DNA of 64,000 nt, taken from Ruegeria sediminis (GTDB taxonomy: Bacteria; Pseudomonadota; Alphaproteobacteria; Rhodobacterales; Rhodobacteraceae). Made by a program: the position numbers and the translations under genes. The notes under the pieces are model-generated. The model searched no databases. It saw only the letters and a program-made list of their open reading frames with translations, and had not been told where the DNA came from. This document shows positions 27,675-44,940 of this stretch, piece by piece. How positions within the stretch are numbered: the stretch's first letter is position 1; each line of letters begins with the position of its first letter. The stretch lies in the NCBI RefSeq assembly GCF_005938215.1, contig NZ_VCPD01000004.1:434001-498000 (forward strand), given 5' to 3'.

Positions 27675-28277
27675 ATGACACGGCTGCTGTTGCGCGGTTT
27701 CGACATCCGCAAGGGATATCTGGATTCGCCCGCCCAAACGCGGTTGATCGCGGCCCTGCGCCCGGTCCTCAAGGCGGCGCCGCTGTTCCGCCCGACGACG
27801 GCCTCGGGCAAGGAGATGTCCGTGCGCATGACCTCGGCCGGGGCGCTGGGTTGGGTGTCGGACAAGGGCGGGTACAGGTATGAACCGGCGCATCCCAAAG
27901 GCATTGCCTGGCCGGCCATTCCGGATGACGTTTTGGCGATCTGGCGCGATGTCGCGGCGGCGGACCGGCTGCCAGACTGCTGCCTGATCAACTATTACGG
28001 CGAGGGCAGCCGCATGGGCCTGCACCAGGACAGGGACGAGGCCGATTTCTCCTGGCCGGTCGTCTCGATCTCGCTGGGCGACGACGCGCTGTTCCGCATC
28101 GGCAATCCGACCCGCGGCGGCAAGACCGAGTCGGTCTGGCTGAATTCGGGCGACGTCGTGATCATGGGCGGTCCGGCGCGCCTGACCTATCACGGCATCG
28201 ACCGGATCAGGTTCGGCTCGTCGCGGCTGCTGCCAAAGGGCGGTCGGCTGAACCTCACGCTGCGGGTCGCCACCTGA
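27675..28277 (+). CDS. alkB: Alpha-ketoglutarate-dependent dioxygenase AlkB
   Basis: 200 residues of the Fe(II)/2-oxoglutarate dioxygenase AlkB family, which removes methyl groups from 1-methyladenine and 3-methylcytosine in DNA. The iron ligands are H117 and D119 (GLHQDRDE) and H173 (YHGIDRI), and arginines in GGRLNLTLR bind 2-oxoglutarate. NYYGEGSRMG and VSISLGDDALFRIG are typical. It is divergent from dnaK and has no adaptive-response partner (ada) in the window. Confidence 0.95.
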   Translation: MTRLLLRGFDIRKGYLDSPAQTRLIAALRPVLKAAPLFRPTTASGKEMSVRMTSAGALGWVSDKGGYRYEPAHPKGIAWPAIPDDVLAIWRDVAAADRLPDCCLINYYGEGSRMGLHQDRDEADFSWPVVSISLGDDALFRIGNPTRGGKTESVWLNSGDVVIMGGPARLTYHGIDRIRFGSSRLLPKGGRLNLTLRVAT

Positions 28278-28288
28278 AGGACAGCGCG

Positions 28289-29182
28289 TCAGCGGCGGGC
28301 GAACCAGCTTTGCGACACCTGGCGGCGGGTGTAGAATTCGGCCATCAGGCCGATCATCAGCAGTACGATCCCGACCCAGACCGCGTATTCCCAGCTGGTC
28401 ACGCGCGGAAAGTAGTTCCGGAACACGAAGCCCCGGCACTGGTCGATGATATGGAACAGAGGGTTCCAGTCGAACATGACCAGCATGAATGGCGGCAGCG
28501 CGTTGGCCACGAACATCTTGCCCGAAAAGACCATGTTCATCCGCCGGTACACGGTGTTGAGAATGGTTGCGAATGTCGGAAACCACGGCTTGATCGCCAG
28601 GAACACCAGCCCGACGCCGCCGCCTGTGAACCAGGCGAGAAACATCATCGCCGACGCGCCGGCGGGATCCTCGATCACGACCGGCGTGACGGCCACGTGA
28701 TAGAGAAACAGGATGATCATGATCGACATCACCTGCGTGTAGAGCGTGCTCAGTCCCGCCGCCAGCAGCGTGACCATCATGTTCATCGGTGAATGCAACA
28801 TCATCGGATTGTTGCCGGTTCCGACCCCCGCTATGGCCGAAACGGTTTTGATGTGGCACTGGAACAGGAAAACGCCGGACAGCAGGAACAGAAAGAAATC
28901 GCCCCTCAGCTTGGCGACGCGCGCGCCCATGAGGGACAACATCAGGTAGAAGGCCGCAACCATCACCAGAACCTGCAGGATGTTCATGAGCAGCGAAACG
29001 ACCGCATTGCTGTGCTTGGACCGGATGCTGCGGACGACGGCGTGAAACACCAGTTCCGCCATCTTGAAGGCGCCGCCCAGAAGGGTGCTATGTCGTCTGT
29101 AGTGGAACACGTTCCGGGCTTTCCTGCATCGCTGCTCGGTTTCTGACACGGAAATCTTGCCGTTCCGTTTCCGGCAAAGCAT
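28289..29182 (-). CDS. ABC-2 type permease for polysaccharide export (KpsM-like)
   Basis: 297 residues from the ATG at 29182; the start is uncertain (29227 and 29062 are alternatives). After a basic cytoplasmic N-terminus with STLLGGAFKMAELVFHAVVR, about six membrane helices follow, as in the capsule/O-antigen exporter permeases KpsM and Wzm. Such permeases move lipid-linked polysaccharide across the inner membrane with an ATPase (KpsT/Wzt). No partner ATPase is encoded in this window, so it must be supplied elsewhere. The gene is divergent from the cysQ-kdsB polysaccharide block. Confidence 0.8.
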   Translation of the reverse strand: MLCRKRNGKISVSETEQRCRKARNVFHYRRHSTLLGGAFKMAELVFHAVVRSIRSKHSNAVVSLLMNILQVLVMVAAFYLMLSLMGARVAKLRGDFFLFLLSGVFLFQCHIKTVSAIAGVGTGNNPMMLHSPMNMMVTLLAAGLSTLYTQVMSIMIILFLYHVAVTPVVIEDPAGASAMMFLAWFTGGGVGLVFLAIKPWFPTFATILNTVYRRMNMVFSGKMFVANALPPFMLVMFDWNPLFHIIDQCRGFVFRNYFPRVTSWEYAVWVGIVLLMIGLMAEFYTRRQVSQSWFARR

Positions 29183-29231
29183 AAGTCCGTCGACCTTGCA
29201 GATCAACAAATCACACGATCGGAGCAATTTT

Positions 29232-30029
29232 GTGACCTACGAAGACCTCATCCCCGTCATCCGAAGACTGGCGCTCGAAGCGGGCGACAGCATCATGGAA
29301 ATCTACAACGCCGACGATTTCGGGGTGAAGGTCAAGTCGGACGCAAGCCCGGTCACCGAGGCGGACGAGGCGGCGGATGCGCTGATCTCGGCCGGTTTGC
29401 GCAAGGCTTTCCCCGACATTCTCCTGATCACCGAGGAACAGGCGGCCTCGCACGCGAAATCGGGCGACACCTTCCTGATCGTCGATCCGCTGGACGGCAC
29501 CAAGGAGTTCATCAACCGGCGCGGCGATTTCACCGTCAACATCGCCCTGGTGGAAAACGGCACACCGACCCGCGGCGTCGTCTATGCGCCCGCCAAGGGG
29601 CGGATGTTCTATACGCAGCCCGATGGCCGGTCGGTCGAGGAAACCGGTGCGCTGGACAAGGCAACCGCGGGCGACGTGACGCCGATGTCAGTCTCTGAAC
29701 CGGACAATTCCGCGCTGATGGTGGTGGCGTCGAAGTCCCACCGGGATCAGGCGACCGACGATTACATCGGCAAGTACCGCGTGCAGGACAGCAAGAGCGC
29801 CGGGTCCTCGTTGAAATTCTGCCTCGTCGCGACCGGCGAGGCCGACCTATACCCGCGCCTCGGCCGCACGATGGAATGGGACACCGCCGCGGGCCACGCC
29901 GTGCTTGCCGGGGCGGGCGGCCAGGTGATCCGGTTCGACGATCATGCGCCGCTGACCTACGGCAAGGCCGGCTATGCCAACCCCTTCTTCATCGCCTACG
30001 CCCCGGGCGTCGAGCTGAAGGGGGCGTGA
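29232..30029 (+). CDS. cysQ: 3'(2'),5'-bisphosphate nucleotidase CysQ
   Basis: 265 residues starting at GTG 29232, with GGAG at 29221-29224 seven nt upstream; the longer frame has no such site. The inositol-monophosphatase-fold metal motif D-P-L-D-G-T-K-E (about 85-92) and the preceding EE pair at 68-69 bind magnesium. CysQ hydrolyses PAP to AMP and so recycles the by-product of PAPS-dependent sulfation. It overlaps kdsB by one nucleotide. In this cluster, next to a sulfotransferase, that fits removal of inhibitory PAP. Confidence 0.93.
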   Translation: MTYEDLIPVIRRLALEAGDSIMEIYNADDFGVKVKSDASPVTEADEAADALISAGLRKAFPDILLITEEQAASHAKSGDTFLIVDPLDGTKEFINRRGDFTVNIALVENGTPTRGVVYAPAKGRMFYTQPDGRSVEETGALDKATAGDVTPMSVSEPDNSALMVVASKSHRDQATDDYIGKYRVQDSKSAGSSLKFCLVATGEADLYPRLGRTMEWDTAAGHAVLAGAGGQVIRFDDHAPLTYGKAGYANPFFIAYAPGVELKGA

Positions 30030-30829
30030 TGTCGGTCCTGATCGCAATACCCGCCCGCTACGCCTCGACCCGCTATCCCGGCAAGCCGCTGGTGCCGCTG
30101 GTGGGGGCCAACGGCGCCTCCATGACGCTGATCGAACGGTCGTGGCGCGCGGCCATGGCCGTTTCCGGCGTCGACCGGGTCGTCGTGGCCACCGACGACG
30201 ACCGGATCCGCGCGGTGGCCGAAGGCTTCGGCGCCGAGGTGGTGATGACCTCGGTCGACTGCGCCAACGGCACCGAACGCTGCGCCGAGGCGCATGAGGC
30301 GCTGGGCGGCGGCTACGAGATCGTGGTGAACCTGCAGGGCGACGCGCCGCTGACCCCAGCCTGGTTCGTCGAGGATCTGGTCACCGGCCTGCGCGCCGCG
30401 CCCGCGGCGGGCGTCGCCACTCCGGTCTTGCGCTGCGACGGCGGCGCGCTGAACAGCCTGCTGAACGACCGCAAGCATGGCCGCGTCGGTGGAACAACGG
30501 CAGTCTTCGGCGCCGATCACGGCGCGCTCTACTTCTCGAAGGAAGTGATCCCCTACACGTCGAAACTCTACGCCGATGCCGAGGAAACGCCGGTGTTCCA
30601 TCATGTCGGCGTCTATGCCTACCGCCCGGACGCGCTTGCCGCCTATCCCGGCTGGCCCACCGGCCCGCTGGAAACGCTGGAAGGGCTCGAACAGCTGCGC
30701 TTCATGGAAAACGGCCGCAAGGTGCTCTGCGTCGAGGTCGAAGCCAGGGGCCGCCAGTTCTGGGAGTTGAACAACCCGCAGGACGTGCCCAAGATCGAAG
30801 AGATGATGGCCGCCATGGGTTTGGATTGA
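30029..30829 (+). CDS. kdsB: 3-deoxy-manno-octulosonate cytidylyltransferase (KdsB-like)
   Basis: 266 residues, somewhat longer than classical KdsB. The nucleotide-binding start IAIPARYASTRYPGKPLVPL, VVVATDDDRIRAVAEGFGAE and VNLQGDAPLTP match CMP-Kdo synthetases, which activate Kdo for LPS core or for the poly-Kdo linker of capsules. The central LNDRKHGRVGGTTAVF segment departs from the E. coli type, so it may prefer a Kdo variant. The start overlaps the cysQ stop (TGATG). Confidence 0.85.
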   Translation: MSVLIAIPARYASTRYPGKPLVPLVGANGASMTLIERSWRAAMAVSGVDRVVVATDDDRIRAVAEGFGAEVVMTSVDCANGTERCAEAHEALGGGYEIVVNLQGDAPLTPAWFVEDLVTGLRAAPAAGVATPVLRCDGGALNSLLNDRKHGRVGGTTAVFGADHGALYFSKEVIPYTSKLYADAEETPVFHHVGVYAYRPDALAAYPGWPTGPLETLEGLEQLRFMENGRKVLCVEVEARGRQFWELNNPQDVPKIEEMMAAMGLD

Positions 30830-30900
30830 GCCAACTTGTCCCGTTCCAAAACCTGACGGGCATCTGCTAGCAACGCCAAAACGAACGCACGGAAACCCAA

Positions 30901-31884
30901 ATGACCAATATCCTTGTGACCGGCGGCGCCGGCTACATCGGATCACATGCCTGCAAGGCCCTCGCGGCGGCGGGATATACCCCGGTGACCTATGACAACC
31001 TTGTCACCGGCTGGCAGGATGCGGTGAAATTCGGCCCCTTCGAACGGGGCGACCTGTTGGACCGCGACCGGCTGGACGAGGTCTTCGCCAAGCATCAACC
31101 CGCAGCGGTCATGCATTTCGCGGCCCTCAGCCAGGTTGGCGAGGCGATGTCGCAGCCCGGCCGGTACTGGGCCAACAACGTCACCGGATCGCTGAACCTG
31201 ATCGAAGCGGCCACGGCGGCGGGCTGCCTGAATTTCGTCTTTTCCTCGACCTGCGCCACCTATGGCGACCACGACAACGTGGTGCTGGACGAGAACACGC
31301 CGCAGCATCCGTTGAACGCCTATGGCGCATCGAAGCGCGCGATCGAGGACATCCTGCGCGATTTCGAGGCCGCTCACGGGCTGAAACACGTGATCTTCCG
31401 GTACTTCAACGTCGCCGGCGCCGACCCCGAGGGCGAGGTCGGCGAGTTCCATCGCCCCGAAACCCATCTGGTGCCGCTGATGCTGGACGCGATCGACGGC
31501 AAGCGGGACGCCCTGACCGTGTTCGGCACCGATTACGACACGCCGGACGGCACCTGCATCCGCGACTACGTGCATGTCTGCGACCTGGTGGACGCGCATG
31601 TCCTCGGCCTGAAATGGCTGGAGCACGACAAGGGCAGCCGGGTGTTCAACCTCGGCACCGGGTCGGGCTTTTCGGTGATGGAGGTCATCGAACGTTCGAA
31701 ATCCGTGACCAACCGCGAAGTGCCCTACAACATCGGCCCGCGCCGCGCCGGCGACTGCACCAAGCTGGTGTCGGGATCGACCCGCGCCGAGGCGGAACTG
31801 GGGTGGAAACCGGGACGCTCAACCCTGCAGACCATGATCTCGGACGCATGGCGCTGGCACCAGAACGGGCACTATGACAGGTAG
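30901..31884 (+). CDS. galE: UDP-glucose 4-epimerase
   Basis: 327-residue extended SDR. NAD-binding GGAGYIGSH occurs at residues 8-16, the catalytic serine region is FSSTCATYGD and the YxxxK motif is NAYGASKRAIED. RDYVHVCDLVDAHVLG and FNLGTGSGFSVMEVI are GalE features. It interconverts UDP-glucose and UDP-galactose (or the N-acetyl forms) and supplies the glycosyltransferases immediately downstream (7 nt gap). Confidence 0.95.
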   Translation: MTNILVTGGAGYIGSHACKALAAAGYTPVTYDNLVTGWQDAVKFGPFERGDLLDRDRLDEVFAKHQPAAVMHFAALSQVGEAMSQPGRYWANNVTGSLNLIEAATAAGCLNFVFSSTCATYGDHDNVVLDENTPQHPLNAYGASKRAIEDILRDFEAAHGLKHVIFRYFNVAGADPEGEVGEFHRPETHLVPLMLDAIDGKRDALTVFGTDYDTPDGTCIRDYVHVCDLVDAHVLGLKWLEHDKGSRVFNLGTGSGFSVMEVIERSKSVTNREVPYNIGPRRAGDCTKLVSGSTRAEAELGWKPGRSTLQTMISDAWRWHQNGHYDR

Positions 31885-31891
31885 GCGCTGA

Positions 31892-32935
31892 GTGGTTTCC
31901 GTTTCCTCCGAACAGGCACGTCATCCCGGTCTGATCGACGCCTACAGGTTGCGGTGGAAACGGCGGCGGCTGTTGTGGCGTTCGTTCCGCAGCCGCCATC
32001 ACCTGACGGCGCTGGCCGACCGTACCGGGCGGATCGGACCGGGCGACATCCTCGCCGTCACGACCCTGCGGAACGAAATCACCCGCCTGCCCTGGTTCCT
32101 GCACCACTATCGCCGCCTGGGCGTCGACCATTTCCTCGTGGTGGACAATGGCAGCGACGACGGCTCGGCCGATTTGTTGGCCAGGCAACCGGACGTGTCG
32201 CTCTGGCAGACCGCGCACAGCTATCGCGAGGCGCGGTTCGGGCTGGACTGGATGACCTGGTTGCAGATGCGCCACGGGCACCGGCACTGGACCCTGATGG
32301 TCGATGCGGACGAGTTGCTGATCTACGCGCATCACGAGACGCGCTCGCTGCGCGACCTGACCGGATGGCTTGACCGGACGGGGCGCGATGTCTTCGGCGC
32401 TCATCTGCTCGACCTCTACCCCGAAGGGCCGCTTGGCGCGCAGACCCATGACCCGGGCACGGATCCGACGCAGGTGGTCAATTGGTTCGATGCCGGTCCC
32501 TGCCGGGCGCAGCGGCAGCGACCGATGGGCAATCTCTGGGTCCAGGGCGGCGTTCGCGAACGCGCCTTTTTCGCCGACCGGCCGCATCGGTCGCCCACGC
32601 TGAACAAGATCCCGCTGATCCGCTGGTCGCGCCGCTTCGCCTATGTCAACTCGTCCCATTCGGCCCTGCCGCGGCGTCTGAACTTCGGCTATGACGGGCC
32701 GGGCGGCGCGGCGCCGTCCGGCGTTCTGCTGCACACCAAGTTCCTGCCCGAAGTCGTCGGGAAATCGGAAATCGAGAAATCGCGCAGCCAGCATTTCCAC
32801 GACCCGGATCAGTTCGGCGGCTACTATGACGGCATCATCGGCCGGCCCACGCTCTGGACCCCGGACTCGGTACGCTACACCGGATGGCGGCAGCTCGAGC
32901 AGCTGGGCCTGATGAATTCCGGCGGCTGGACATAG
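31892..32935 (+). CDS. Glycosyltransferase family 2-like protein, first paralog
   Basis: 347 residues from GTG 31892, 7 nt after galE. The GT-A-like core shows TLRNEITRLPWFLHHYRRLG, VDHFLVVDNGSDDGSADLL and the metal-binding D-A-D-E in LMVDADELLIY. This is the PF13704-type glycosyltransferase (GT2/GT92-like) pattern in which a line of sugar-transfer enzymes work on surface glycans. A basic N-terminus (RLRWKRRRLLWRSF) suggests peripheral membrane binding. It is paralogous to the gene at 33081. Acceptor and donor are unknown. Confidence 0.85.
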   Translation: MVSVSSEQARHPGLIDAYRLRWKRRRLLWRSFRSRHHLTALADRTGRIGPGDILAVTTLRNEITRLPWFLHHYRRLGVDHFLVVDNGSDDGSADLLARQPDVSLWQTAHSYREARFGLDWMTWLQMRHGHRHWTLMVDADELLIYAHHETRSLRDLTGWLDRTGRDVFGAHLLDLYPEGPLGAQTHDPGTDPTQVVNWFDAGPCRAQRQRPMGNLWVQGGVRERAFFADRPHRSPTLNKIPLIRWSRRFAYVNSSHSALPRRLNFGYDGPGGAAPSGVLLHTKFLPEVVGKSEIEKSRSQHFHDPDQFGGYYDGIIGRPTLWTPDSVRYTGWRQLEQLGLMNSGGWT

Positions 32936-33006
32936 ACTGCGACCGCAGCCGAAGCGGTACCGGTATGTCACGGCCGCCGATGAAATCGGGAATGCGTTGT
33001 TAACCG

Positions 33007-33036
33007 TTGCCTCGCAGACTGCAAAAATGAGATAAA
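33007..33036 (+). promoter_or_regulatory. Candidate promoter before second glycosyltransferase
   Basis: TTGCCT (33007-33012), an 18-nt spacer and GATAAA (33031-33036) lie in the 145-nt gap between the two paralogs, 45 nt before the ATG. The match is moderate and A-rich relative to the surroundings. Confidence 0.3.
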
Positions 33037-33080
33037 ACGGGTATCGCCCGGCACCACTCAGGCACGGAACAGAACCGGGG

Positions 33081-34124
33081 ATGCGCAGGTTTCGCAGAGG
33101 ATTGAGCAGTCGCGTGAGCCTTTTGGACTCATATCGGATGAGACTGCGGCGCAAACGCCGCATCTTGCGCTGCCTGCGGAAAGCCCGCGAGCTGACCGTG
33201 GTCAGCGACAACACGGGCTCGATCCAGCCGGATGACATCCTGCTGACCAGCACCGTGCGCAATGAAAAGATCAGGCTGCCCTATTTCCTGAAATATTACC
33301 GCGACCTCGGGGTGAACCACTTTCTTTTCATCGACAACGACAGCGATGACGGAACGCTCGAATATCTGGCGGCGCAGCCGGGCGTCTCGGTCTGGAGAAC
33401 CGGCCACAGCTACAAGAAGGCGACCTACGGCGTCGACTGGACCAATTACCTGCTGCGCCGCCATGCCCATGGCCACTGGGTGCTGACCGTCGATCCGGAC
33501 GAGTTCTTCGTCTACCCCTTCTGCGACACGCGGCCGGTCAGGGCGCTGACCGATTGGCTCGACAGCACCGGCGTCCGCAGTTTCGGCGCGATGCTGGTCG
33601 ATGTCTATCCCAAGGGTCCGATCGACGAAGAACGCTATCGCGAAGGCCAGAACCCGCTGGAGATCGCGAGTTGGTTCGACACAGGCAACTACACGATCAC
33701 CCGGAACCCGGCCTACGGGAATCTCTGGATTCAGGGCGGCCCGCGATGCCGCATGTTCTTCCAGGACAACCCCCGAAAGGCGCCGGCGCTGAACAAGATA
33801 CCGCTGGTGCGCTGGAACCGCCGCTTTGCCTATGTCAGTTCCACGCATGCCCTGCTGCCGCGCGGGCTGAACCAGGTCTACGACGATTCCGGCGGCGAGA
33901 AGTCGAGCGGCGTTCTGTTGCACGCGAAACTGATCGACACGCTTGGCGCCAAGGCCGAAGAAGAGCTGACCCGGACCCAGCACTATGCGTCCTCGACGGA
34001 ATACAGGGCCTACGCGCAACACCTGCAGGACCGACCCTCGTTCTGGTGCAAATGGTCCGAGAAATACATCAACTGGCGGCAGCTCGAAATCCTGGGGCTC
34101 ATGTCGAAAGGGAACTGGGCATGA
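33081..34124 (+). CDS. Glycosyltransferase family 2-like protein, second paralog
   Basis: 347 residues, the same length as the preceding paralog and alignable throughout: both share TxRNE near residue 70, DNxSDDG, HSYxxAxxGxDW, VDxDE, LNKIPL then RW.RRFAYV, SSGVLLH-type segments and WRQLE-LGLM at the end. The DPDE motif would bind the nucleotide-sugar metal. The basic amphipathic N-terminus is again present. The start at 33081 lacks a well-spaced Shine-Dalgarno; GTG 33114 is an alternative. It overlaps the GT14 gene by 4 nt. The tandem copy suggests two successive or alternative transfer steps. Confidence 0.85.
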   Translation: MRRFRRGLSSRVSLLDSYRMRLRRKRRILRCLRKARELTVVSDNTGSIQPDDILLTSTVRNEKIRLPYFLKYYRDLGVNHFLFIDNDSDDGTLEYLAAQPGVSVWRTGHSYKKATYGVDWTNYLLRRHAHGHWVLTVDPDEFFVYPFCDTRPVRALTDWLDSTGVRSFGAMLVDVYPKGPIDEERYREGQNPLEIASWFDTGNYTITRNPAYGNLWIQGGPRCRMFFQDNPRKAPALNKIPLVRWNRRFAYVSSTHALLPRGLNQVYDDSGGEKSSGVLLHAKLIDTLGAKAEEELTRTQHYASSTEYRAYAQHLQDRPSFWCKWSEKYINWRQLEILGLMSKGNWA

Positions 34125-35821
34125 GCACGCTGGGTATCGTCATGCTGGTTCACACGGCGCTGGACCGCGCCGAGCAAGTTGCGCGGCACTGGACCGCGTC
34201 GGGCTGCCCGGTGGTGATCCACGTGGACCGAAAGGTGCCCGGCGGCGTGTACGAGACCTTCGTCAGATCCTGTTCCAGCGACCCGAAGATCCTGTTCTCG
34301 AAACGCCACTCCTGCGACTGGGGCGGGTGGGGCATCGTCGCGGCGTCGCAATCCGCAGCGCGAATGATGCTCGATCGCTTTCCGGATGTCCGCCACGTCT
34401 ACCTGGCCTCGGGCGCCTGCCTGCCGCTGCGGCCGGTCCAGGAACTGATCGACTATCTCGCCGCCCGGCCCCGCACCGACTTCATCGAAAGCGCCACGAC
34501 CGAAGATGTCAGTTGGACCGTCGGCGGCCTGGACATCGAACGCTTCACGCTGCGGTTCCCGTTTTCGTGGCGCAAGCAGCGCAAGCTTTTTGACGCCTAT
34601 GTCAAGTTCCAGCGCCGGATCGGTTACAAGCGGAAGATCCCCGAGGGGCTGGTCCCGCACATGGGCAGCCAGTGGTGGTGCCTGACCCGGCAGACCCTGT
34701 CGGCCGTTCTCGAAGATCCCAAACGCCGGACCTACGACCGCTATTTCCGCCGCGTCTGGATCCCCGACGAAAGCTATTTCCAGACCCTGTCCCGGCTCTA
34801 TTCCACCGATATCGAAAGCCGTTCGCTGACGCTGTCCAAGTTCGATTTCCAGGGCAAGCCGCATATTTTCTATGACGACCACCTGCAATTGCTGCGCCGG
34901 TCGGACTGTTTCGTGGCGCGCAAGATCTGGCCGCAGGCCGACCGCCTTTACCAGGCGTTTCTGACCGATCAGGCAACCGCGATGAAACCGGCCGAGCCAA
35001 ATCCGGCAAGGATCGACCGCGTCTTCGCCAAGGCGGTCGAGCGCCGGACCCGCGGGCGCGACGGTCTCTACATGCAAAGCCGCTTTCCAGGCCACGGGCG
35101 CGAGAACAAGCTGACCTCGGGGCCCTATTCGGTCTTCCAGGGTTTCTCCGAGCTGTTCGAGGATTTTGAGGCCTGGCTGGCCGGATCCACCGGGCTTCGG
35201 GTTCACGGCCATCTCTTCGCGCCGGATCGGGCCGAGTTCGCCGATGGCGAGACGATGATCAACGGCGGCCTCACCGATCATGCCGGTCTGCGCGATTACA
35301 ACCCGACCGCCTTCCTGTCGAACCTGATCTGGAACACCAGGGGGGAACGCCAGTGCTTCCAATACGGTCCCGCCGACAACCAGGACATCAACTGGTTCCT
35401 GGCCCGCGACATCAACGCGCAGATCTCGGTCGTCACCGGGGCCTGGGCCGTGCCGCTGTTCAGATCCAACCGCAATTTCTCCGAGATCCGGAAAGAGGCC
35501 GCCCGCCTTCAGCGCATAGAAACCGAACAGCTGGACATCCTGCGGTCGGTCTGGACCAAGGCCCGCGTCCGCATCTGGACGATGGCGGAGTTCATCGAAG
35601 CGCCGATGGAGCCGATACAGACGGTCATCGACGAGATCATGCCCGCCGGCCCCCGCCACATCGCCGAAGCGCCCAGGCTGGTGGATATCGCCGGGTTCGG
35701 GAAATTCCTGCAGAACCTGAAGAACCAGGGGATGCACCCCTATCTGATGGGCGACTTCCCGGTTGAAGAGCCGGGCGAGCAGACGCCGAAACCGATCCGG
35801 AAACCCTATCTGGTGCAATGA
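34121..35821 (+). CDS. GT14 (Core-2/I-branching type) glycosyltransferase fused to a large uncharacterised domain
   Basis: 566 residues. The first ~280 resemble the Branch family of beta-1,6-N-acetylglucosaminyl or xylosyl transferases: GIVMLVHTALDRAEQVARHW, VVIHVDRKVPGG, YLASGACLPLRP, MGSQWWCLTRQTL and a late PDESYFQTL. Residues ~290-566 form a second domain (VFQGFSELFEDFEAWLAGST, NGGLTDHAGLRDYNPTAFLS, DINWFLARDINAQISVVTGA) that may correspond to a DUF known in Rhodobacteraceae (DUF5928 from memory). The start ATG overlaps the previous stop (ATGA). It lies 6 nt before the sulfotransferase gene, so it is probably part of the same glycan assembly. Confidence 0.85.
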   Translation: MSTLGIVMLVHTALDRAEQVARHWTASGCPVVIHVDRKVPGGVYETFVRSCSSDPKILFSKRHSCDWGGWGIVAASQSAARMMLDRFPDVRHVYLASGACLPLRPVQELIDYLAARPRTDFIESATTEDVSWTVGGLDIERFTLRFPFSWRKQRKLFDAYVKFQRRIGYKRKIPEGLVPHMGSQWWCLTRQTLSAVLEDPKRRTYDRYFRRVWIPDESYFQTLSRLYSTDIESRSLTLSKFDFQGKPHIFYDDHLQLLRRSDCFVARKIWPQADRLYQAFLTDQATAMKPAEPNPARIDRVFAKAVERRTRGRDGLYMQSRFPGHGRENKLTSGPYSVFQGFSELFEDFEAWLAGSTGLRVHGHLFAPDRAEFADGETMINGGLTDHAGLRDYNPTAFLSNLIWNTRGERQCFQYGPADNQDINWFLARDINAQISVVTGAWAVPLFRSNRNFSEIRKEAARLQRIETEQLDILRSVWTKARVRIWTMAEFIEAPMEPIQTVIDEIMPAGPRHIAEAPRLVDIAGFGKFLQNLKNQGMHPYLMGDFPVEEPGEQTPKPIRKPYLVQ

Positions 35822-35827
35822 TCCGGC

Positions 35828-37261
35828 ATGACAGCCACGTTCGACTATTTCGTCATTTTCGCCGAGATGCGCACCGGATCCAACTTTCTGGAATCCAATC
35901 TGAACGCGCTGGACGGCGTTTCCTGCCTGGGCGAAGTGTTCAATCCCCATTTCATCGGGCATCCCAACCGGACCGAGGTTCTGGGGATCACCCAGCCGGA
36001 ACGGGACGCGGATCCGGCGGCCCTGCTGGATGCCATCCGCAAGATGCCGGACGGCCTGGCCGGGTTCCGGTTCTTTCACGACCATGATCCGCGCGTGCCG
36101 GACCTCGTTCTGGACGACCCGCGCTGCGCCAAGATCATCCTGACCCGCAATCCGCTGGACAGCTATGTCTCGTGGAAGATCGCGCAGCAGACCGGGCAGT
36201 GGAAGCTGACCAACATCAAGCGCCGGCGCGAAGCCCTGGCCGAGTTCGATGCCGACGAGTTCTGCCAGTATGTCGCGAACCTGCAGGACTTTCAGCTGCG
36301 CCTGCTGAACGCGCTGCAGCGGTCGGGACAGACGCCTTTCTACCTCGCCTACGAGGATCTGCAGGACATCGACGCGCTGAACGGCCTGGTCAAATGGCTC
36401 GGGCTGGACACGCGGCTTGCGCAGCTGGACGAAAGCCTCACCCGTCAGAACCCGGGACCGATCGAAGACAAGGTCGCCAACCCCGACCAGATCGCGGCGG
36501 GGCTTGCCGGGCTGGACCGGTTCAACCTGACCCGCACGCCGAACTTCGAACCGCGTCGAGGCCCCGCCGTGCCGACTTATGTCGCCGCCGCGGATACCGC
36601 CCTTATGTACCTGCCGGTCCGGGGTGGGCCAGAGGCGGAAATCGTACGGTGGCTGGCCGAACTGGACGGCGTCGAACCGGACGCCCTGATCACCGGCATG
36701 AACCGGAAACAGGCGAACCGCTGGATGCGCGCCAACCGCGGGCACCGCCGGTTCACCGTGGTGCGGCACCCCCTGTTGCGGGCGCATTCGGTGTTCTGCC
36801 GCCGGATTTTGAATACCGGACCGGGAAGCTATACCCGCATCCGCAACACCCTGCGCAGGCAGTTCAGGCTGCCGATTCCGGAAAAAGCGCCGGACCAGGA
36901 GTATTCCCTCGATCAGCACCGCGCCGCCTTTGCGGCGTTTCTCGAATTTCTCCGCATGAACCTTGCCGGTCAGACGCCGATCCGGGTCGATGGCAACTGG
37001 TGTTCGCAGTCGCAGACCCTGAGCAGCTTTGCCGATTTCGCCCCGCCCGATCAGGTGCTGCGCGAAGACGAGATGAAATCGGCCCTGCCCGACCTTGCGC
37101 GACAGCTGGGCCATCCCGATCCGCCGACGCCGCGCGACCCGTTGCCGGACTCACCGGTCTCGCTGTCGGACATCCATGACGCCGAACTCGAGGCGCTGGC
37201 AGCGGACATCTACCAGCGCGACTATCTTCTGTTCGGTTTCGAAAACTGGAAACCCGCCTGA
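35828..37261 (+). CDS. Two-module Stf0-like / Sulfotransfer family protein
   Basis: 477 residues. Module 1 (about 1-230) has a PAPS 5'-phosphosulfate loop in AEMRTGSNFLESNL (13-25) and a 3'-phosphate motif LTRNPLDSYVSWK (105-117), as in Stf0 glycolipid sulfotransferases. Module 2 (about 245-477) begins TYVAAADTALMYLPVRGG, where the loop residues are degraded, but keeps a 3'-phosphate-like FTVVRHPLLRAHSVFCRR (309-326). One module may be catalytic and the other structural or acceptor-binding. It follows the GT14 gene by 6 nt. Sulfation of a surface glycan is the likely role; the acceptor is unknown. Confidence 0.8.
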   Translation: MTATFDYFVIFAEMRTGSNFLESNLNALDGVSCLGEVFNPHFIGHPNRTEVLGITQPERDADPAALLDAIRKMPDGLAGFRFFHDHDPRVPDLVLDDPRCAKIILTRNPLDSYVSWKIAQQTGQWKLTNIKRRREALAEFDADEFCQYVANLQDFQLRLLNALQRSGQTPFYLAYEDLQDIDALNGLVKWLGLDTRLAQLDESLTRQNPGPIEDKVANPDQIAAGLAGLDRFNLTRTPNFEPRRGPAVPTYVAAADTALMYLPVRGGPEAEIVRWLAELDGVEPDALITGMNRKQANRWMRANRGHRRFTVVRHPLLRAHSVFCRRILNTGPGSYTRIRNTLRRQFRLPIPEKAPDQEYSLDQHRAAFAAFLEFLRMNLAGQTPIRVDGNWCSQSQTLSSFADFAPPDQVLREDEMKSALPDLARQLGHPDPPTPRDPLPDSPVSLSDIHDAELEALAADIYQRDYLLFGFENWKPA

Positions 37262-39926: not shown

Positions 39927-41759
39927 CTATTCGGCGGCTTCGGTGCGGATGAACCCGCCCGACTGGCGGTGCCAGAACCGGGCGTAAAGCCCGCCTTTGG
40001 CCAGCAGCCTGTCATGGGTGCCGCTCTCGACGATCCGGCCCTCGTCCAGCACGATGATCCGGTCCATCTCGCTGAGCGTGGACAAGCGGTGGGCGATGGC
40101 CAGAACCGTCTTGCCCTCCATCACCCGGTGCAGGGCGGTCTGGATCGACGCCTCGACCTCGGAATCCAGCGCCGAGGTCGCCTCGTCCAGAACCAGTATC
40201 GGCGCGTCCTTGAGAATGGCCCGCGCCAGCGCGATCCGCTGCCTTTGCCCGCCGCTCAGCTTGACGCCGCGCTCGCCGAGGTGGGCGTCATAGCCCTTGC
40301 GCCCCTGCGCATCCTCGAGATCCAGGATGAACTCATGCGCCTCGGCCTTCTTCGCCGCCGCCAGCAGCTCGTCCTCGGTGGCGTCGGGGCGGCCGTAAAG
40401 GATGTTCTCGCGCGCCGAGCGGTTGAACATCGCGGTTTCCTGCGTGACCATGCCGATCTGGCGGCGCAAACTGTCCTGCGTGACGGCCGTGACATCCTGT
40501 CCGTCGATCCGGATGGCGCCGTTTTCCCCGTCATAGAGCCGCAACAGCAGCGAGACCAGCGTCGACTTGCCCGCCCCCGAGGCGCCGACGATGCCCAGTT
40601 TCTCGCCCGGCCGCACGGTCAGCGACATGTCCTGCACGCCGCCCGTATCCCGGCCGTAGGCAAAGGACACGTCGTCGAATTCGATCTCGCCATCGGTCAC
40701 GACCAGGTCCGGCGCCGCCGCCCCGTCCTCGATCCGCCTGCGGACGGCCAGGGTCTTCATCCCGTTCTCCACCTCGCCGACATGCGCGTAAAGGCCCAGC
40801 AGGGTAAAGCTGACCCACCCGGTCATCTGCGAGATGCGGATCGACACGGTGCCCGCGGCCACGATGTCCCCGGCGGTCGCGCTGCCCGCCTGCCACAACA
40901 CCAGCGTTGCCGCCAGCAGCAGCACCGGCAGCACCCCGGCCAGCGTCATCAGGATGAAGCGGAAGCTGACAGAAAGCCGCCCGAACTCCAGCGCCCTCTC
41001 GCGCAGCTCGACCATCGCCCTCTGGGCGGCCTGGTCCTCGTGATCTGCATGGGCAAACAGCTTGACCGTCTTGATGTTGGTGATCGTGTCGACCACCTGA
41101 CCCGACACCATCGCCCGCGCCCCGGCCCGCGCCCCCGAGCGGATGCGGACCCGCGGCAGGTACCAGCGGATCAGCGCGAAATAGACGACCAGCCACAGCA
41201 CGAAAGGCAGCATCACCAGCGGATGGATCGAGCCCAGCAGGGCCAGCGACCCCACCAGCGACGCCAGCGCGAAGACGATGGCGCTGATGGTGTCCGACAC
41301 CACCGAGGCCAGCGCGTTCGAGGTCTGCATCTGCTTTTGCGCGATCCGGCCCGCGAAATCGTCGTCGAAATAGGTGACGGACTGGCCCAGCGTCCAGCGG
41401 TTCAGCTTGGACAGCACCAGCGGCGGGATGTTCGGCATCACGATGTAGTTGTTCGAAAGCGACGACAGCCCGAACAGGACCGGCCGCAGCACCATGAAGA
41501 AGAAGACCGCGCCGACGATCATCCACAGGTTCTGGGGCGACAGGAACGCGTCCGGCCCGCTGGCCGTCGCCACGTCGATGACCCGGCCCAGGATCCAGGC
41601 CGTCACCGCCTCCATCGCGCCGGCGGCGGCCGAGAAGAACGCCGCCAGGAACAGCATCGGCCAGGCCCCGGACAGGCACCAGCGGATGAAGGCGCCCAGC
41701 GTCCGCGGCGGCGGCGTCTCGCCGGGACGGAACGGGTCGATCAGGTCGGCGATCCTCAT
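39927..41759 (-). CDS. ABC exporter half-transporter, ATPase plus permease (subunit 2)
   Basis: 610 residues: a six-helix type I exporter domain (about 25-330) and a nucleotide-binding domain with Walker A GASGAGKST, signature LSGGQRQRIALARA, Walker B ILVLDEATSALD and H-loop AIAHRLST. It overlaps the upstream homologous gene by 4 nt, so the two probably form a heterodimer. Both keep the catalytic glutamate, unlike many heterodimeric exporters that have one degenerate site. Substrate is unknown; multidrug or lipid export are the usual roles. Confidence 0.92.
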   Translation of the reverse strand: MRIADLIDPFRPGETPPPRTLGAFIRWCLSGAWPMLFLAAFFSAAAGAMEAVTAWILGRVIDVATASGPDAFLSPQNLWMIVGAVFFFMVLRPVLFGLSSLSNNYIVMPNIPPLVLSKLNRWTLGQSVTYFDDDFAGRIAQKQMQTSNALASVVSDTISAIVFALASLVGSLALLGSIHPLVMLPFVLWLVVYFALIRWYLPRVRIRSGARAGARAMVSGQVVDTITNIKTVKLFAHADHEDQAAQRAMVELRERALEFGRLSVSFRFILMTLAGVLPVLLLAATLVLWQAGSATAGDIVAAGTVSIRISQMTGWVSFTLLGLYAHVGEVENGMKTLAVRRRIEDGAAAPDLVVTDGEIEFDDVSFAYGRDTGGVQDMSLTVRPGEKLGIVGASGAGKSTLVSLLLRLYDGENGAIRIDGQDVTAVTQDSLRRQIGMVTQETAMFNRSARENILYGRPDATEDELLAAAKKAEAHEFILDLEDAQGRKGYDAHLGERGVKLSGGQRQRIALARAILKDAPILVLDEATSALDSEVEASIQTALHRVMEGKTVLAIAHRLSTLSEMDRIIVLDEGRIVESGTHDRLLAKGGLYARFWHRQSGGFIRTEAAE

Positions 41760-43594
41760 TCTGCCGCCTCCGGGTTCAGGAAACCGCCCGATTGCCGCGC
41801 CCAGAACCGGGCGTAAAGCCCGCCATGCGCCAGCAGTTCGGCATGGCTGCCCTGTTCGACGATGCGCCCCCGGTCCATCACCAGGATACGGTCCATCTGG
41901 GCAATGGTGCTGAGCCGGTGCGCGATCGCGATGACTGTCTTGCCCTGCATCATGCCGTAAAGCGTGTCCTGAATGGCTGCCTCGACCTCGGAATCTAGGG
42001 CGGATGTCGCCTCGTCCAAGAGAAGGATCGGCGCGTCCTTCAGGATGACGCGCGCCAGCGCCACCCGCTGCCGCTGCCCGCCGCTGAGTTTCACGCCCCG
42101 CTCGCCCACATGCGCGTCATAGCCGCGGCGACCCTGCGGGTCCTGAAGATCAAGGATGAAGTCATGCGCTTCGGCCTGTTTCGCGGCGGCGATCATCTCG
42201 GCTTCGCTGGCCTCGGGACGGCCGTAAAGGATGTTGTCCCTGACCGACCGGTGCAGCAGCACGCTGTCCTGCTGAACCATGCCGATATGGCGGCGCAGGC
42301 TGTCCTGGGTAACCTTCGAGATGTCCTGACCATCGATCAGGATATCGCCGCGCTCGGCGTCGTAGAAGCGCAGCAGCAACTTGACCAGCGTCGATTTCCC
42401 CGCGCCCGAACGCCCGATCAGGCCGATCTTCTCGCCGGGTTCGATGGTCAGGTTGATCCGGTCCAGCCCGCCCGCCTCGCGCCCGTAGTGGTGCGACAGC
42501 TCGCGCAGTTCGATCCGGCCTTCGGTCAGGCGCAGGGGCCCGGCATCGGGCGCATCCACCAGGTCGATGGGCTGCGCGATGGTCTCCATCCCCTCGGCCA
42601 CCACGCCGAGCTGACGGAAAAAGCTGGTCAGCGCCCACATCATCCATTCGGTCATCGCGTTCAGCCGCAGCGTCAGCGCCGTCGCCGCCGCGACGATCCC
42701 GACCGACGCCTGCCCCTGCATCCAGAGCGCCACGGCCCAGCCGACGACGCCGACGATCAGGAAACCGTTCAGCGTCACCAGTATCACGTCCATGACGGTG
42801 AAGATCCGCATCTCGACCTGGAAGGTGCGGCGCGTGTTTGCGATGGCTTCGCGCGCATAGGCCAGCTCTTGATCGTCGTGGGCGAACATCTTGACCGAAT
42901 GGATGTTGGTATAGCTGTCCACCACCCGCCCCGTCACGGTCGAGCGCGCGTCGGACGCCGCCTGCGACGCCGGACCCACGCGCCGCACCGTCCAGCGCAC
43001 CAGCAGCGCGTAGAGGCCGAACCACAGCAGCAGCGGCAAAACCAGCCGCACATCCGCCGTCATCAGCAGGATCGCCGCGCCGATCAGATAGGCCAGCGAA
43101 AATGAAATCGCGTCGAAGACCTGAAAGATCACCTCGCCCGCCGCCGGGGGCGTCTGCATGATGCGGTTGGCGATGCGCCCGGCAAAATCGTTCTCGAACC
43201 AGCCCACGGACTGGCGCAGGACGTGCCGGTGCGCGCGCCACCGGATCAGCGTGCCAAAGTTCGGCAGGATCGCGTTGTTCAGAAGCAGCACGTCCAGCAG
43301 ATGCAGGATCGGCCGCAGGAACAGCACGAAACCCGCAACCAGCAGCAACTCGGTGCCATGCGCCTCCCACACCTCGGCCGGAGAGCCGGTCAGCAGATCG
43401 ACGACCCGGCCCATGTAGTAGATCAGGCCCAGTTCGACCGCGGCCACGACCGCCGATGTCACGGCGGTCCAGAAGAAGACCCGCAGGAACGGCCGCGAAT
43501 AGTCCAGCAGGAACGGCCACAGCCGGCCCGGCGGCGTATCCGCCTCGCGGTAGGGGACAAAGGGGTCTACGAGGTCTTCGAAAAATCGAAACAT
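41756..43594 (-). CDS. ABC exporter half-transporter, ATPase plus permease (subunit 1)
   Basis: 612 residues from the ATG at 43594 (MFRFFEDLVDPFVPYREADT). The long upstream part of the frame has no support. Six membrane helices precede an ATPase domain with Walker A GRSGAGKST, signature LSGGQRQRVALARV, Walker B ILLLDEATSALD and AIAHRLST. It is similar along its length to the 39927-41759 gene (shared LGERGVKLSGGQRQR-like NBD and HEFI/HDFILDL segments), so the pair arose by duplication. It probably leads a two-gene operon. Substrate is unknown. Confidence 0.92.
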   Translation of the reverse strand: MFRFFEDLVDPFVPYREADTPPGRLWPFLLDYSRPFLRVFFWTAVTSAVVAAVELGLIYYMGRVVDLLTGSPAEVWEAHGTELLLVAGFVLFLRPILHLLDVLLLNNAILPNFGTLIRWRAHRHVLRQSVGWFENDFAGRIANRIMQTPPAAGEVIFQVFDAISFSLAYLIGAAILLMTADVRLVLPLLLWFGLYALLVRWTVRRVGPASQAASDARSTVTGRVVDSYTNIHSVKMFAHDDQELAYAREAIANTRRTFQVEMRIFTVMDVILVTLNGFLIVGVVGWAVALWMQGQASVGIVAAATALTLRLNAMTEWMMWALTSFFRQLGVVAEGMETIAQPIDLVDAPDAGPLRLTEGRIELRELSHHYGREAGGLDRINLTIEPGEKIGLIGRSGAGKSTLVKLLLRFYDAERGDILIDGQDISKVTQDSLRRHIGMVQQDSVLLHRSVRDNILYGRPEASEAEMIAAAKQAEAHDFILDLQDPQGRRGYDAHVGERGVKLSGGQRQRVALARVILKDAPILLLDEATSALDSEVEAAIQDTLYGMMQGKTVIAIAHRLSTIAQMDRILVMDRGRIVEQGSHAELLAHGGLYARFWARQSGGFLNPEAAE

Positions 43595-43779
43595 GGAACG
43601 TGCTCCAATCGAGCAGACAAACGGAAATGCGAAACGTGGCAGCGCCGCGGCACCACCCTTACGGGTCGTATGCCACGGCCTCAGCCGAACCGGAGCCCGT
43701 AATACATTCGCATTCCTCCATCCATGTGACAGGCGACACCCTAGCCGCAAATCCATCGGCTTGTCACCCCCGCGGGGGA

Positions 43780-44940
43780 TCAGCCGGTTTCGGCCAGCAA
43801 TTCGCTTCGGTCCAGCGCGAAGCCGGACGCGATCCAGCGCGCTTCCAGTTCCGCCAGCTTGTCGCCCAGCGCGGGGCCGGAAAACCGCGGCAGAAGGTCC
43901 CTGGCCCTGACCGGGAAACGGGCCTGCGCGCCCTGCCGCAATTCCGCGGTCATGTCGGGGTTCCACGGCTGCTCGAGCAGCGCGTACCGCAACAGCACCG
44001 CGTCGAGCCCGCCATCGGCGCCCAGGCGGTAGCCGAGTTCCGGCGCCCCCGCCGTTCCGGCGGCGGCCTCGCGCATGTTTTCCACGCGCCGCAGCTGCGC
44101 CCGGCTCAACCGCAGGGTCGAGACGGTCTCGGCCCCGCCCAGCGCGGCGAGGCGGCGGACGGGATCCGCCACGGCGCCGGCCTGCGCCTCCAGCGCCACC
44201 AGCGGCGCCAGGGCCCCGTCGTCGGCACCGGGCAAGATCTGCGGCAGAACCCCGGCGGCCCGCATCGCGGCGACAGAGGGGGCCGGATCGGCCGCGCCGA
44301 GCAGCTTCAGAAGCTCCGCCCCCACCCGTTCGCGCGACAGCCTGGACAGCCCGTCCAGATTGGCCGCGATGGCCGACAGGGCGTCCGGATCGAACCCGGC
44401 CTCGTCGTCACCGTAAAAGGCGTGGAACCGGAAATAGCGCAGCGACCGCAGGTAATCCTCGCGGATGCGGTCCTCGGCGTGACCGATGAACCGGACCCGG
44501 CGGGCCCAAAGGTCGGGCAACCCGCCCAGCGGGTCCAGCACGGTTCCGTCGGGCCGGGCGTAAAGCGCGTTCATGGTGAAATCGCGGCGGGCGGCGTCCT
44601 CTTCGACCCGGCCGGAATAGGCGATCCTGGCGCGCCGGCCGTCGGTTTCCACGTCGCGGCGAAAGGTGGTGACCTCATGCGGCACGCCGCCGCTCACCAG
44701 CGTGACCGTGCCGTGGTCGATCCCGGTCGGAACCGCCTTGATGCCTGCCTTCTCGGCCAGTTCGACCACCCGTTCGGGGCGGGCGTCGGTGGCGATGTCG
44801 ATATCGGCCACATCCACGCCCAACAGCGCGTTGCGCACGCAGCCGCCGACGAACAGGGCCTGCGCGCCACCGCCGGTCAGGGCGGCGCAGACCTTCTGCG
44901 TATCGGGATCGGTCACCCAGGCATCTGTGATCCGCGTCAT
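43780..44940 (-). CDS. cca: CCA tRNA nucleotidyltransferase
   Basis: 386 residues of the class II poly(A) polymerase/CCA-adding family. The nucleotidyltransferase core shows LFVGGCVRNALLGVDVADID (catalytic D-x-D), HGTVTLVSGG, EVTTFRRDVETDGRRA and RRDFTMNALYA, and the C-terminal half is helical. It adds or repairs the 3'-CCA end of tRNAs. The ATG at 44940 overlaps the Nudix gene stop (ATGA), setting the start. Whether it adds all of CCA or only part cannot be told. Confidence 0.95.
   Translation of the reverse strand: MTRITDAWVTDPDTQKVCAALTGGGAQALFVGGCVRNALLGVDVADIDIATDARPERVVELAEKAGIKAVPTGIDHGTVTLVSGGVPHEVTTFRRDVETDGRRARIAYSGRVEEDAARRDFTMNALYARPDGTVLDPLGGLPDLWARRVRFIGHAEDRIREDYLRSLRYFRFHAFYGDDEAGFDPDALSAIAANLDGLSRLSRERVGAELLKLLGAADPAPSVAAMRAAGVLPQILPGADDGALAPLVALEAQAGAVADPVRRLAALGGAETVSTLRLSRAQLRRVENMREAAAGTAGAPELGYRLGADGGLDAVLLRYALLEQPWNPDMTAELRQGAQARFPVRARDLLPRFSGPALGDKLAELEARWIASGFALDRSELLAETG

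Follow-up and report, generated by a model that had tools for sequence, protein, structure and literature searches.

The closest described relatives of the locus treated here are capsules exported by ATP-binding cassette (ABC) transporters, some of them sulfated. Cobetia marina KMM 1449 carries kpsETMD, kpsSC, cysN/C-cysD-cysQ and sulfotransferase genes, and its sulfated capsule was proven by nuclear magnetic resonance, according to the accessible part of the report (PMC11766843). For the sulfated capsule of Vibrio sp. KMM 8419, the available portion of the report states that no public genome had the same or a similar locus (PMC11641403). KpsM-type export is represented by the KpsMT-KpsE complex of S. 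thermodepolymerans (structure 8TSH), in which replacement of Arg35, Trp45, Arg89 or Arg94 of KpsM (StKpsM) stops export, as given in the accessible text (PMC11041684). Here we analyzed a stretch of 64,000 nucleotides (nt) of Ruegeria sediminis, hereafter the window (NCBI RefSeq assembly GCF_005938215.1, contig NZ_VCPD01000004.1, positions 434,001 to 498,000), in which a gene for a KpsM-like ABC-2 permease diverges from a block of sugar and sulfate genes. We consider it probable that this block represents the serotype-like part of a capsule system that is dispersed, ABC-exported, sulfated and primed with 3-deoxy-D-manno-octulosonic acid (Kdo), and that most sampled Rhodobacteraceae carry this system.

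Layout and conservation of the block

The locus lies on contig C13 of the 4.23-Mb genome (G000). A preliminary description of the window had placed the permease divergently from cysQ-kdsB-galE, two glycosyltransferase (GT) genes, a GT14 fusion gene and a sulfotransferase gene. Open frames and family matches confirmed this order, and all eight predicted genes were found as open frames at the positions given in that description. The permease gene (28289..29062, minus strand) is the sole member of its own kind found in the genome in a search with its own sequence. The remaining genes are on the plus strand. With an assumed GTG start, cysQ (29232..30029) encodes a 3'(2'),5'-bisphosphate nucleotidase, as indicated by an Inositol_P match, a TIGR01331 score above the curated cut-off (263 versus 228.8 bits) and a match to CysQ 3b8b in the PDB (1.9e-48). 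The products of kdsB (30029..30829), a cytidine monophosphate (CMP)-Kdo synthetase, and galE (30901..31884), a uridine diphosphate (UDP)-glucose 4-epimerase, also scored above their cut-offs (NF003950, 351 versus 234 bits; TIGR01179, 419 versus 262 bits). GT2a (31892..32935) and GT2b (33081..34124) both match Glyco_tranf_2_4 and are tandem paralogues with 50% identity across 310 amino acids (aa). They are followed by a GT14 protein (Branch, PF02485) fused to DUF5927 (PF19349; 34121..35821; DUF5927 match 2e-160) and by a sulfotransferase with a NodH-like N module and a Sulfotransfer_2-type C module (35828..37261). The tight spacing noted previously holds for the overlaps of cysQ with kdsB (1 nt) and of GT2b with GT14 (4 nt) and for the gaps between galE and GT2a (7 nt) and between GT14 and the sulfotransferase gene (6 nt), but not for the gaps between kdsB and galE (71 nt) and between GT2a and GT2b (145 nt). 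The permease gene and cysQ are separated by 169 nt when measured between the starts that we chose for both.

We compared 120 loci, of which 80 named ones were the best 80 of 591 matches and thus biased toward near relatives, and 40 were picked by hand (26 from a divergent set and 14 from the top of a family survey of DUF5927). Removal of three duplicates left 117 loci, and the denominators below refer to loci with enough flanking sequence. The sampled family was taken as Rhodobacteraceae from the named relatives; NCBI now places Ruegeria in Roseobacteraceae. Among the best 80 of the 591 matches, the nearest named relatives of the GT14 protein were mostly from Ruegeria, and the top ones were 77-80% identical.

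The divergent pair of permease and cysQ was present in 100 of 106 loci, cysQ adjoined kdsB in 89 of 106, GT2b adjoined GT14 in 105 of 106, and the sulfotransferase gene followed GT14 in 110 of 113. Of the 103 loci with both flanks, 95 possessed all four of the permease, cysQ, GT14 and sulfotransferase genes, and 84 of these also had kdsB. GT2b was present in all 106 loci, and GT2a occupies a variable position (55/106). Further, 246 of the 295 family genomes, representing 245 of 294 genera, encode DUF5927, almost always as a single copy. Within the genus it was detected in all 37 genomes sampled, and none of the 24 genomes taken from other families of the class had it. In this survey, genomes not listed among the matches of the DUF5927, PF05159 and permease searches were scored as absences from these gaps. 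Conservation of this arrangement throughout the family places it far outside what chance would produce. The preliminary description would have been contradicted by a lack of synteny in relatives, and the synteny was instead very strong.

Capsule loci are a textbook case of strain-to-strain variability, and the middle of the block fits that picture. The distance from kdsB to GT2b ranged from about 1.0 to 5.9 kb, and in several relatives the interval contained GT2, galU-type, galE and GT4-type genes, named by eye except galE, which differed between relatives. Such variation would be expected if the block were an ordinary, recently acquired, strain-specific capsule locus. The ends of the block, however, are the same across the family, 74 of 106 loci have dnaK or alkB on their upstream side, none of 17 plasmid records with a match covers 80% of the GT14 protein, and the guanine-plus-cytosine content of the block is inside the range of the window. 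We therefore regard recent acquisition as highly improbable and reject it, since it is already largely contradicted. Fixed ends around a changing middle give the block the look of a capsule locus, but here the ends are fixed family-wide.

The presence of DUF5927 followed that of PF05159, the family of the Kdo-transferring proteins KpsC and KpsS. Among the 295 family genomes, 245 had both, one had DUF5927 alone, 24 had PF05159 alone and 25 had neither (Fisher p 1.2e-21); the single genome with DUF5927 alone (G272) is 62% complete. When only the 260 good genomes were counted (completeness of 90% or more, contamination of 5% or less), the numbers were 220, 0, 17 and 23 (p 1.8e-22), that is, DUF5927 was found in none of the 23 good genomes that had no KpsC/KpsS. 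The permease profile matched 262 of the 295 genomes, with some weak hits to other permeases; among the 26 genomes without PF05159, a permease match below 1e-40 was obtained in G272 only.

Because related genomes are not independent, we built a tree of 78 genomes from DnaG and RpoD. The sample comprised all 49 genomes without DUF5927 and 31 of the 246 with it, from which G093 and G179 were dropped (no dnaG); 27 forks of the tree are open, and it contains long rows (G119, G232 and G269). PF05159 changed 16 times and DUF5927 21 times on this tree. In 14 independent pairs that differed in PF05159, DUF5927 differed in the same way in 7.8 (mean), in the opposite way in 0 and not at all in 6.2 (median p 0.0078). 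When weak PF05159 matches were scored as absent, DUF5927 went with PF05159 in 9.4 of 16 pairs and against it in 0. The pairs on the tree agreed with the genome survey and speak against phylogeny as the sole cause of the link.

Dispersed export and Kdo genes and a diverged permease

The kps genes of Ruegeria sediminis are found at three places on three contigs (C13, C12 and C1) and not in the one cluster of group 2/3 capsules. Relatives of KpsC, KpsD and KpsS are grouped on C12 among riboflavin genes. PF05159 occurs at this one place of the genome, in a protein of 445 aa and, repeated, in a protein of 666 aa, and the KpsD relative is a Poly_export protein (1.4e-17). On C1, the order is KpsT-KpsE-kdsA-phosphoglucomutase/phosphomannomutase (pmm); the KpsT product has the KpsMT-KpsE complex as its best solved match (1e-39), and the KpsE relative is the only one in the genome (TIGR01010, 2.7e-53, below the cut-off). 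No glycosyltransferase family was detected in the 20 neighbouring frames scanned in the two 19-kb kps stretches on C12 and C1, some shorter or overlapping frames lying outside the scan. Of the three places with kps genes, the GT cluster was therefore seen only at that of the window. In a distant genome (G064, locus L193), a kpsT-kpsE-kdsA-pmm operon directly adjoins the sulfotransferase gene, joining parts that lie far apart in Ruegeria sediminis. A few kb from the kpsS relative on C12, we also observed a gene whose product has a PIG-L (GlcNAc-PI de-N-acetylase) domain (L134, 17383-18762).

The permease itself had no Pfam match at 0.01, and its score with the KpsM model NF050053 was weak (35 bits, cut-off 300). 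Its profile matched KpsM of 8TSH best among solved structures (3.1e-17), so that the permease and KpsT share the S. thermodepolymerans complex as their best solved match. The canyon residues that StKpsM needs for export were not conserved at the aligned positions of 36 permeases. Arginine or lysine filled the Arg35 column in 14% of the permeases (two columns earlier, 97%), the Arg89 column in 0% (one column later, 78%) and the Arg94 column in 8%, and none of the 36 had a tryptophan within 4 columns of Trp45. At 3e-17, the alignment with StKpsM may slip by a few residues. The family has conserved charges of its own, namely R174 and K182 (36/36 each), R14 (34), H70 (33) and K72 (27). These patterns suggest that either the alignment slips or the permease reads its glycolipid differently from StKpsM.

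The sulfotransferase, the GT14-DUF5927 protein and flanking genes

Pfam assigned Sulfotransfer_2 to aa 301-471 of the sulfotransferase and gave weak Sulfotransfer_1 and Stf0 matches that start in its N half. In the N module, R15, G17, S18, N19, R107 and S115 were invariant in 50 of 50 sequences. We take the RxGS and R...S positions to be the motifs that bind the 5' and 3' phosphates of 3'-phosphoadenosine 5'-phosphosulfate (PAPS), and the invariant residues fit such a candidate PAPS site. The profile of the N module matched the solved structure 9vki (1.8e-16), labelled 'LPS sulfotransferase NodH' by its depositor, where LPS denotes lipopolysaccharide. In the C module, Sulfotransfer_2 was detected in 33 of 50 members and H314 and P315 were invariant; positions 264-268, where a P-loop might be sought, varied. 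An origin of the two modules by internal duplication was not supported (51 columns, 42%). Elsewhere in the genome (L287, C1 near 366968), a bifunctional fusion of ATP sulfurylase (Sat, named by eye) and adenosine 5'-phosphosulfate (APS) kinase is encoded, and PAPS can therefore be made.

The GT14 module matched PF02485 at 1.6e-17. D216 and E217 of its PDE segment, in which an acidic residue presumably has the catalytic role, were present in 33 of 33 sequences. Its closest solved relative was xylosyltransferase 1 (2.9e-12), followed by beta-1,6-N-acetylglucosamine (GlcNAc) transferases (7e-4). Accordingly, this relationship does not identify the sugar transferred or establish 'branching', and the branched glycan of the preliminary description, which is based on the Pfam name, was not supported.

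The DUF5927 profile resembled that of the sulfotransferase N module (hhalign probability 81%, score 44.0, 139 columns) and, at 72%, that of the whole sulfotransferase. The highest control scores were 29.3 (60 column shuffles) and 28.9 (40 block shuffles), and one reversal and four unrelated profiles also scored far lower than 44.0; chance was therefore rejected as the source of the likeness. The PAPS motifs RTGS and R...S are not kept in the DUF5927 alignment. Because no independent support came from searches of Pfam (with 30 members) or of the PDB, we treat the possibility that DUF5927 is a former sulfotransferase domain as a lead.

GT14 and sulfotransferase genes were also seen together on two plasmids. 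In Paracoccus plasmid pNSM5TCa (L290, 6028-8569), a paralogous pair is formed by a GT14-DUF5928 gene and a divergent gene for a Sulfotransfer_2 protein, which matches the C module of the present sulfotransferase (8e-8), so the neighbourhood of GT14 and sulfotransferase genes occurs more than once. On Shinella plasmid pgSHIWSC3 (L291), a distant GT14 gene with a weak DUF5927 match (2.3e-5) is accompanied by a GT2 gene from the same family and a gene for polysaccharide export, and a sulfotransferase gene lies roughly 6 kb away.

Upstream of the permease gene are dnaK (named by eye) and an alkB-type dioxygenase gene (27675-28277), which lies between the two and occupies the same place in many of the compared loci. 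A gene for a YkuD-family L,D-transpeptidase is downstream of the sulfotransferase gene, and two successive long ABC exporter-type frames, named by eye, are on the minus strand at 39927-43966. In Ruegeria and close genera, the downstream genes are those for an L,D-transpeptidase, an ion-channel-type protein, a methyltransferase and ABC exporters instead of an lptB run. Most loci outside the Ruegeria group face rnd and a convergent ptsN-hpf-lptB-lptA run, which kdsD often joins (downstream regions of L078, L114, L195, L196, L198 and L199). Searches for defence systems and repeats found nothing.

A proposed capsule system and its relation to known systems

Gene content, conservation, co-occurrence and the invariant residues of the PAPS site were observed directly, and on this footing we propose the following order of steps. 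KdsB, with KdsA encoded beside kpsT-kpsE, would make CMP-Kdo, and KpsS and KpsC, encoded elsewhere, would prime a lipid with Kdo; polymers of group 2/3 capsules have a phosphatidylglycerol-poly-Kdo end. GT2a and GT2b would elongate the chain, using UDP-sugars that GalE (in relatives, also a GalU-type enzyme) provides, and the GT14-DUF5927 enzyme would add a further sugar. The two-module sulfotransferase would then transfer sulfate from PAPS to the chain, sugars of which would act as acceptors, and CysQ would clear the 3'-phosphoadenosine 5'-phosphate (PAP) formed in this step. The divergent KpsM, probably pairing with the distant KpsT, would together with KpsE and KpsD export a product that is predicted to be sulfated and Kdo-linked. 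That KpsM-type export and Kdo linkage are relevant to the locus, as claimed previously, is supported by the exporter and Kdo-primer genes found elsewhere in the genome. Further, the exopolysaccharide of Salipiger mucosus contains 0.9% w/w sulfate, as stated in the accessible part of the report (PMC2953402). Two other Salipiger species (L096 and L106) possess the permease, cysQ, GT2b, GT14 and sulfotransferase genes, with kdsB absent from that place; taken together, these observations are only suggestive of sulfation.

Several observations weigh against the proposed capsule system. The sulfate of Salipiger mucosus may come from another locus, and neither a glycan structure nor a mutant was found for any organism that has the block. 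The relatives of KpsM, KpsT, KpsE, KpsD and KpsS scored below the NCBIfam cut-offs, KpsC had no NCBIfam match at 1e-8, and the permease does not keep the StKpsM canyon residues. A sulfotransferase gene beside GT14 was not found in 3 of 113 loci. The 24 genomes with PF05159 and without DUF5927 indicate that KpsC/KpsS machinery can exist without the block, and DUF5927 stayed unchanged in 6.2 of the 14 tree pairs. The rest of these observations concern kdsB, cysQ and the downstream genes, and each of them also fits a different reading.

The product of kdsB was confirmed as CMP-Kdo synthetase, but it is the only CTP_transf_3 match in the genome; it must therefore also serve LPS and is not special to the glycan for which it had been named as the Kdo supply. 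Further, lptB is downstream in 74 of 109 loci, as are, on the other strand, ptsN and rnd (74 each), lptA (73) and a kdsD-type gene (45). Together with the depositor's label of 9vki, these findings would suit a block that builds or modifies the LPS core or O-chain, with KdsB feeding LPS Kdo, the glycosyltransferases and the sulfotransferase acting on LPS and the permease being an unrelated neighbour. However, DUF5927 tracks KpsC/KpsS across genomes and on the tree, whereas LPS is, to our knowledge, to be expected in nearly all sampled genomes of the family. The permease is also too constant a partner of cysQ for an unrelated neighbour, and in Ruegeria and close genera other genes lie downstream (ykuD in 25 of 109 loci) with the block order unchanged. 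We consider a function in LPS unlikely on this evidence.

In one genome (G208, locus L289), the permease gene, cysQ, kdsB, a GT2 gene, a galU-type gene and galE are kept, and GT2b, GT14 and the sulfotransferase gene are missing there. A repeat-rich, RTX-like frame follows the retained genes in this natural loss of the sulfotransferase end. Because cysQ is retained beside the permease gene and kdsB in G208, disposal of PAP for the sulfotransferase is unlikely to be its only role. In addition, no kdsB was found in 16 of the 106 loci. These exceptions, and the 71-nt gap between kdsB and galE, would be explained if two units merely adjoined each other, namely a housekeeping cysQ-kdsB pair for sulfur assimilation and LPS and an independent capsule GT block, sulfated or not. 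Against such a division, cysQ-kdsB stays adjacent to the block in 89 of 106 loci, and there are two links between Kdo and kps genes, since kdsB accompanies the permease gene and kdsA accompanies kpsT-kpsE. We regard two adjoining units as quite improbable.

Since the gene order recurs across most sampled genera, the sulfated coat built by the proposed capsule system may be an old shared trait and not an oddity of one strain. If so, the module in 246 of 295 genomes would give a common group of marine bacteria a shared polyanionic coat, which would bear on the receptors of phages and gene transfer agents, on attachment to algae and on the source of sulfated polymers in seawater. The proposed system also gives DUF5927 a testable function and predicts that one machine is assembled from scattered kpsM, kpsT-kpsE-kdsA and kpsS-kpsD-kpsC. 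A bolder version is conceivable, although we think it doubtful: a sulfated, Kdo-primed capsule, made by an invariable GT2-GT14-sulfotransferase module, would be an ancestral core trait of Rhodobacteraceae, a glycosyltransferase of this module fused to a former sulfotransferase domain that has lost PAPS binding would couple sugar addition with sulfation, and this KpsM lineage would read its glycolipid through R14, H70, K72, R174 and K182.

Several described loci were set against the present one. In the literature of one open library, we found no description of the present locus, no mention of DUF5927 and no paper that combined three of cysQ, kdsB, sulfotransferase and roseobacter. The capsule of R. 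capsulatus that serves as receptor of the gene transfer agent was rejected as the same locus: it is encoded by rcc01081-01086 with wza/wzb/wzc elsewhere, according to the accessible part of the report (PMC10218006), and the main text of PMC9552610 does not contain 'sulfotransferase', nor does PMC13420450 contain a word beginning with 'sulf'. Xylosyltransferase 1 and the core-2 GlcNAc transferase (GT14), and the carbohydrate sulfotransferases (Sulfotransfer_2), are relatives by profile, but distant ones (2.9e-12; 7e-4). Plasmid pNSM5TCa resembles the present locus in its GT14 protein with a C-terminal domain and in its divergent Sulfotransfer_2 gene, but it has DUF5928 in place of DUF5927, a single-module sulfotransferase and no kps or kds genes among its annotated neighbours.

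Group 2/3 ABC-dependent capsules share with Ruegeria sediminis the relatives of KpsM, KpsT, KpsE, KpsD, KpsC and KpsS; they differ, as far as the accessible text of the report describes them, in the StKpsM canyon residues, which are not conserved here, and in that parts of the present system score below curated cut-offs (PMC11041684). The sulfated capsule of Vibrio sp. KMM 8419 is similar in its genes for ABC export, sulfotransferase and PAPS. In contrast, its cluster has kpsS without kpsC, and a start on undecaprenyl (wecA) was proposed for it in the available portion of the report (PMC11641403). The cluster of Cobetia marina KMM 1449 is closest, with KpsM-type ABC export, Kdo priming by KpsS/KpsC and the linkage of CysQ and sulfotransferase genes to a single polymer; the accessible part of the report describes a cluster of about 70 genes from a single genus that includes cysN/C, cysD and cysQ, and GT14, DUF5927 and 'branching' are absent from its main text (PMC11766843). 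Because that cluster has been described, this kind of system is already known, and the earlier view that the combination was not a described locus was too strong. Unlike the Cobetia cluster, the present system is scattered over three places, occurs in most sampled genera of a family, and combines a single short GT-sulfotransferase operon with a permease that has diverged. What is new here is thus the family-wide depth of conservation, the scattering of the parts, the divergence of the permease and the likely origin of DUF5927 from a sulfotransferase.

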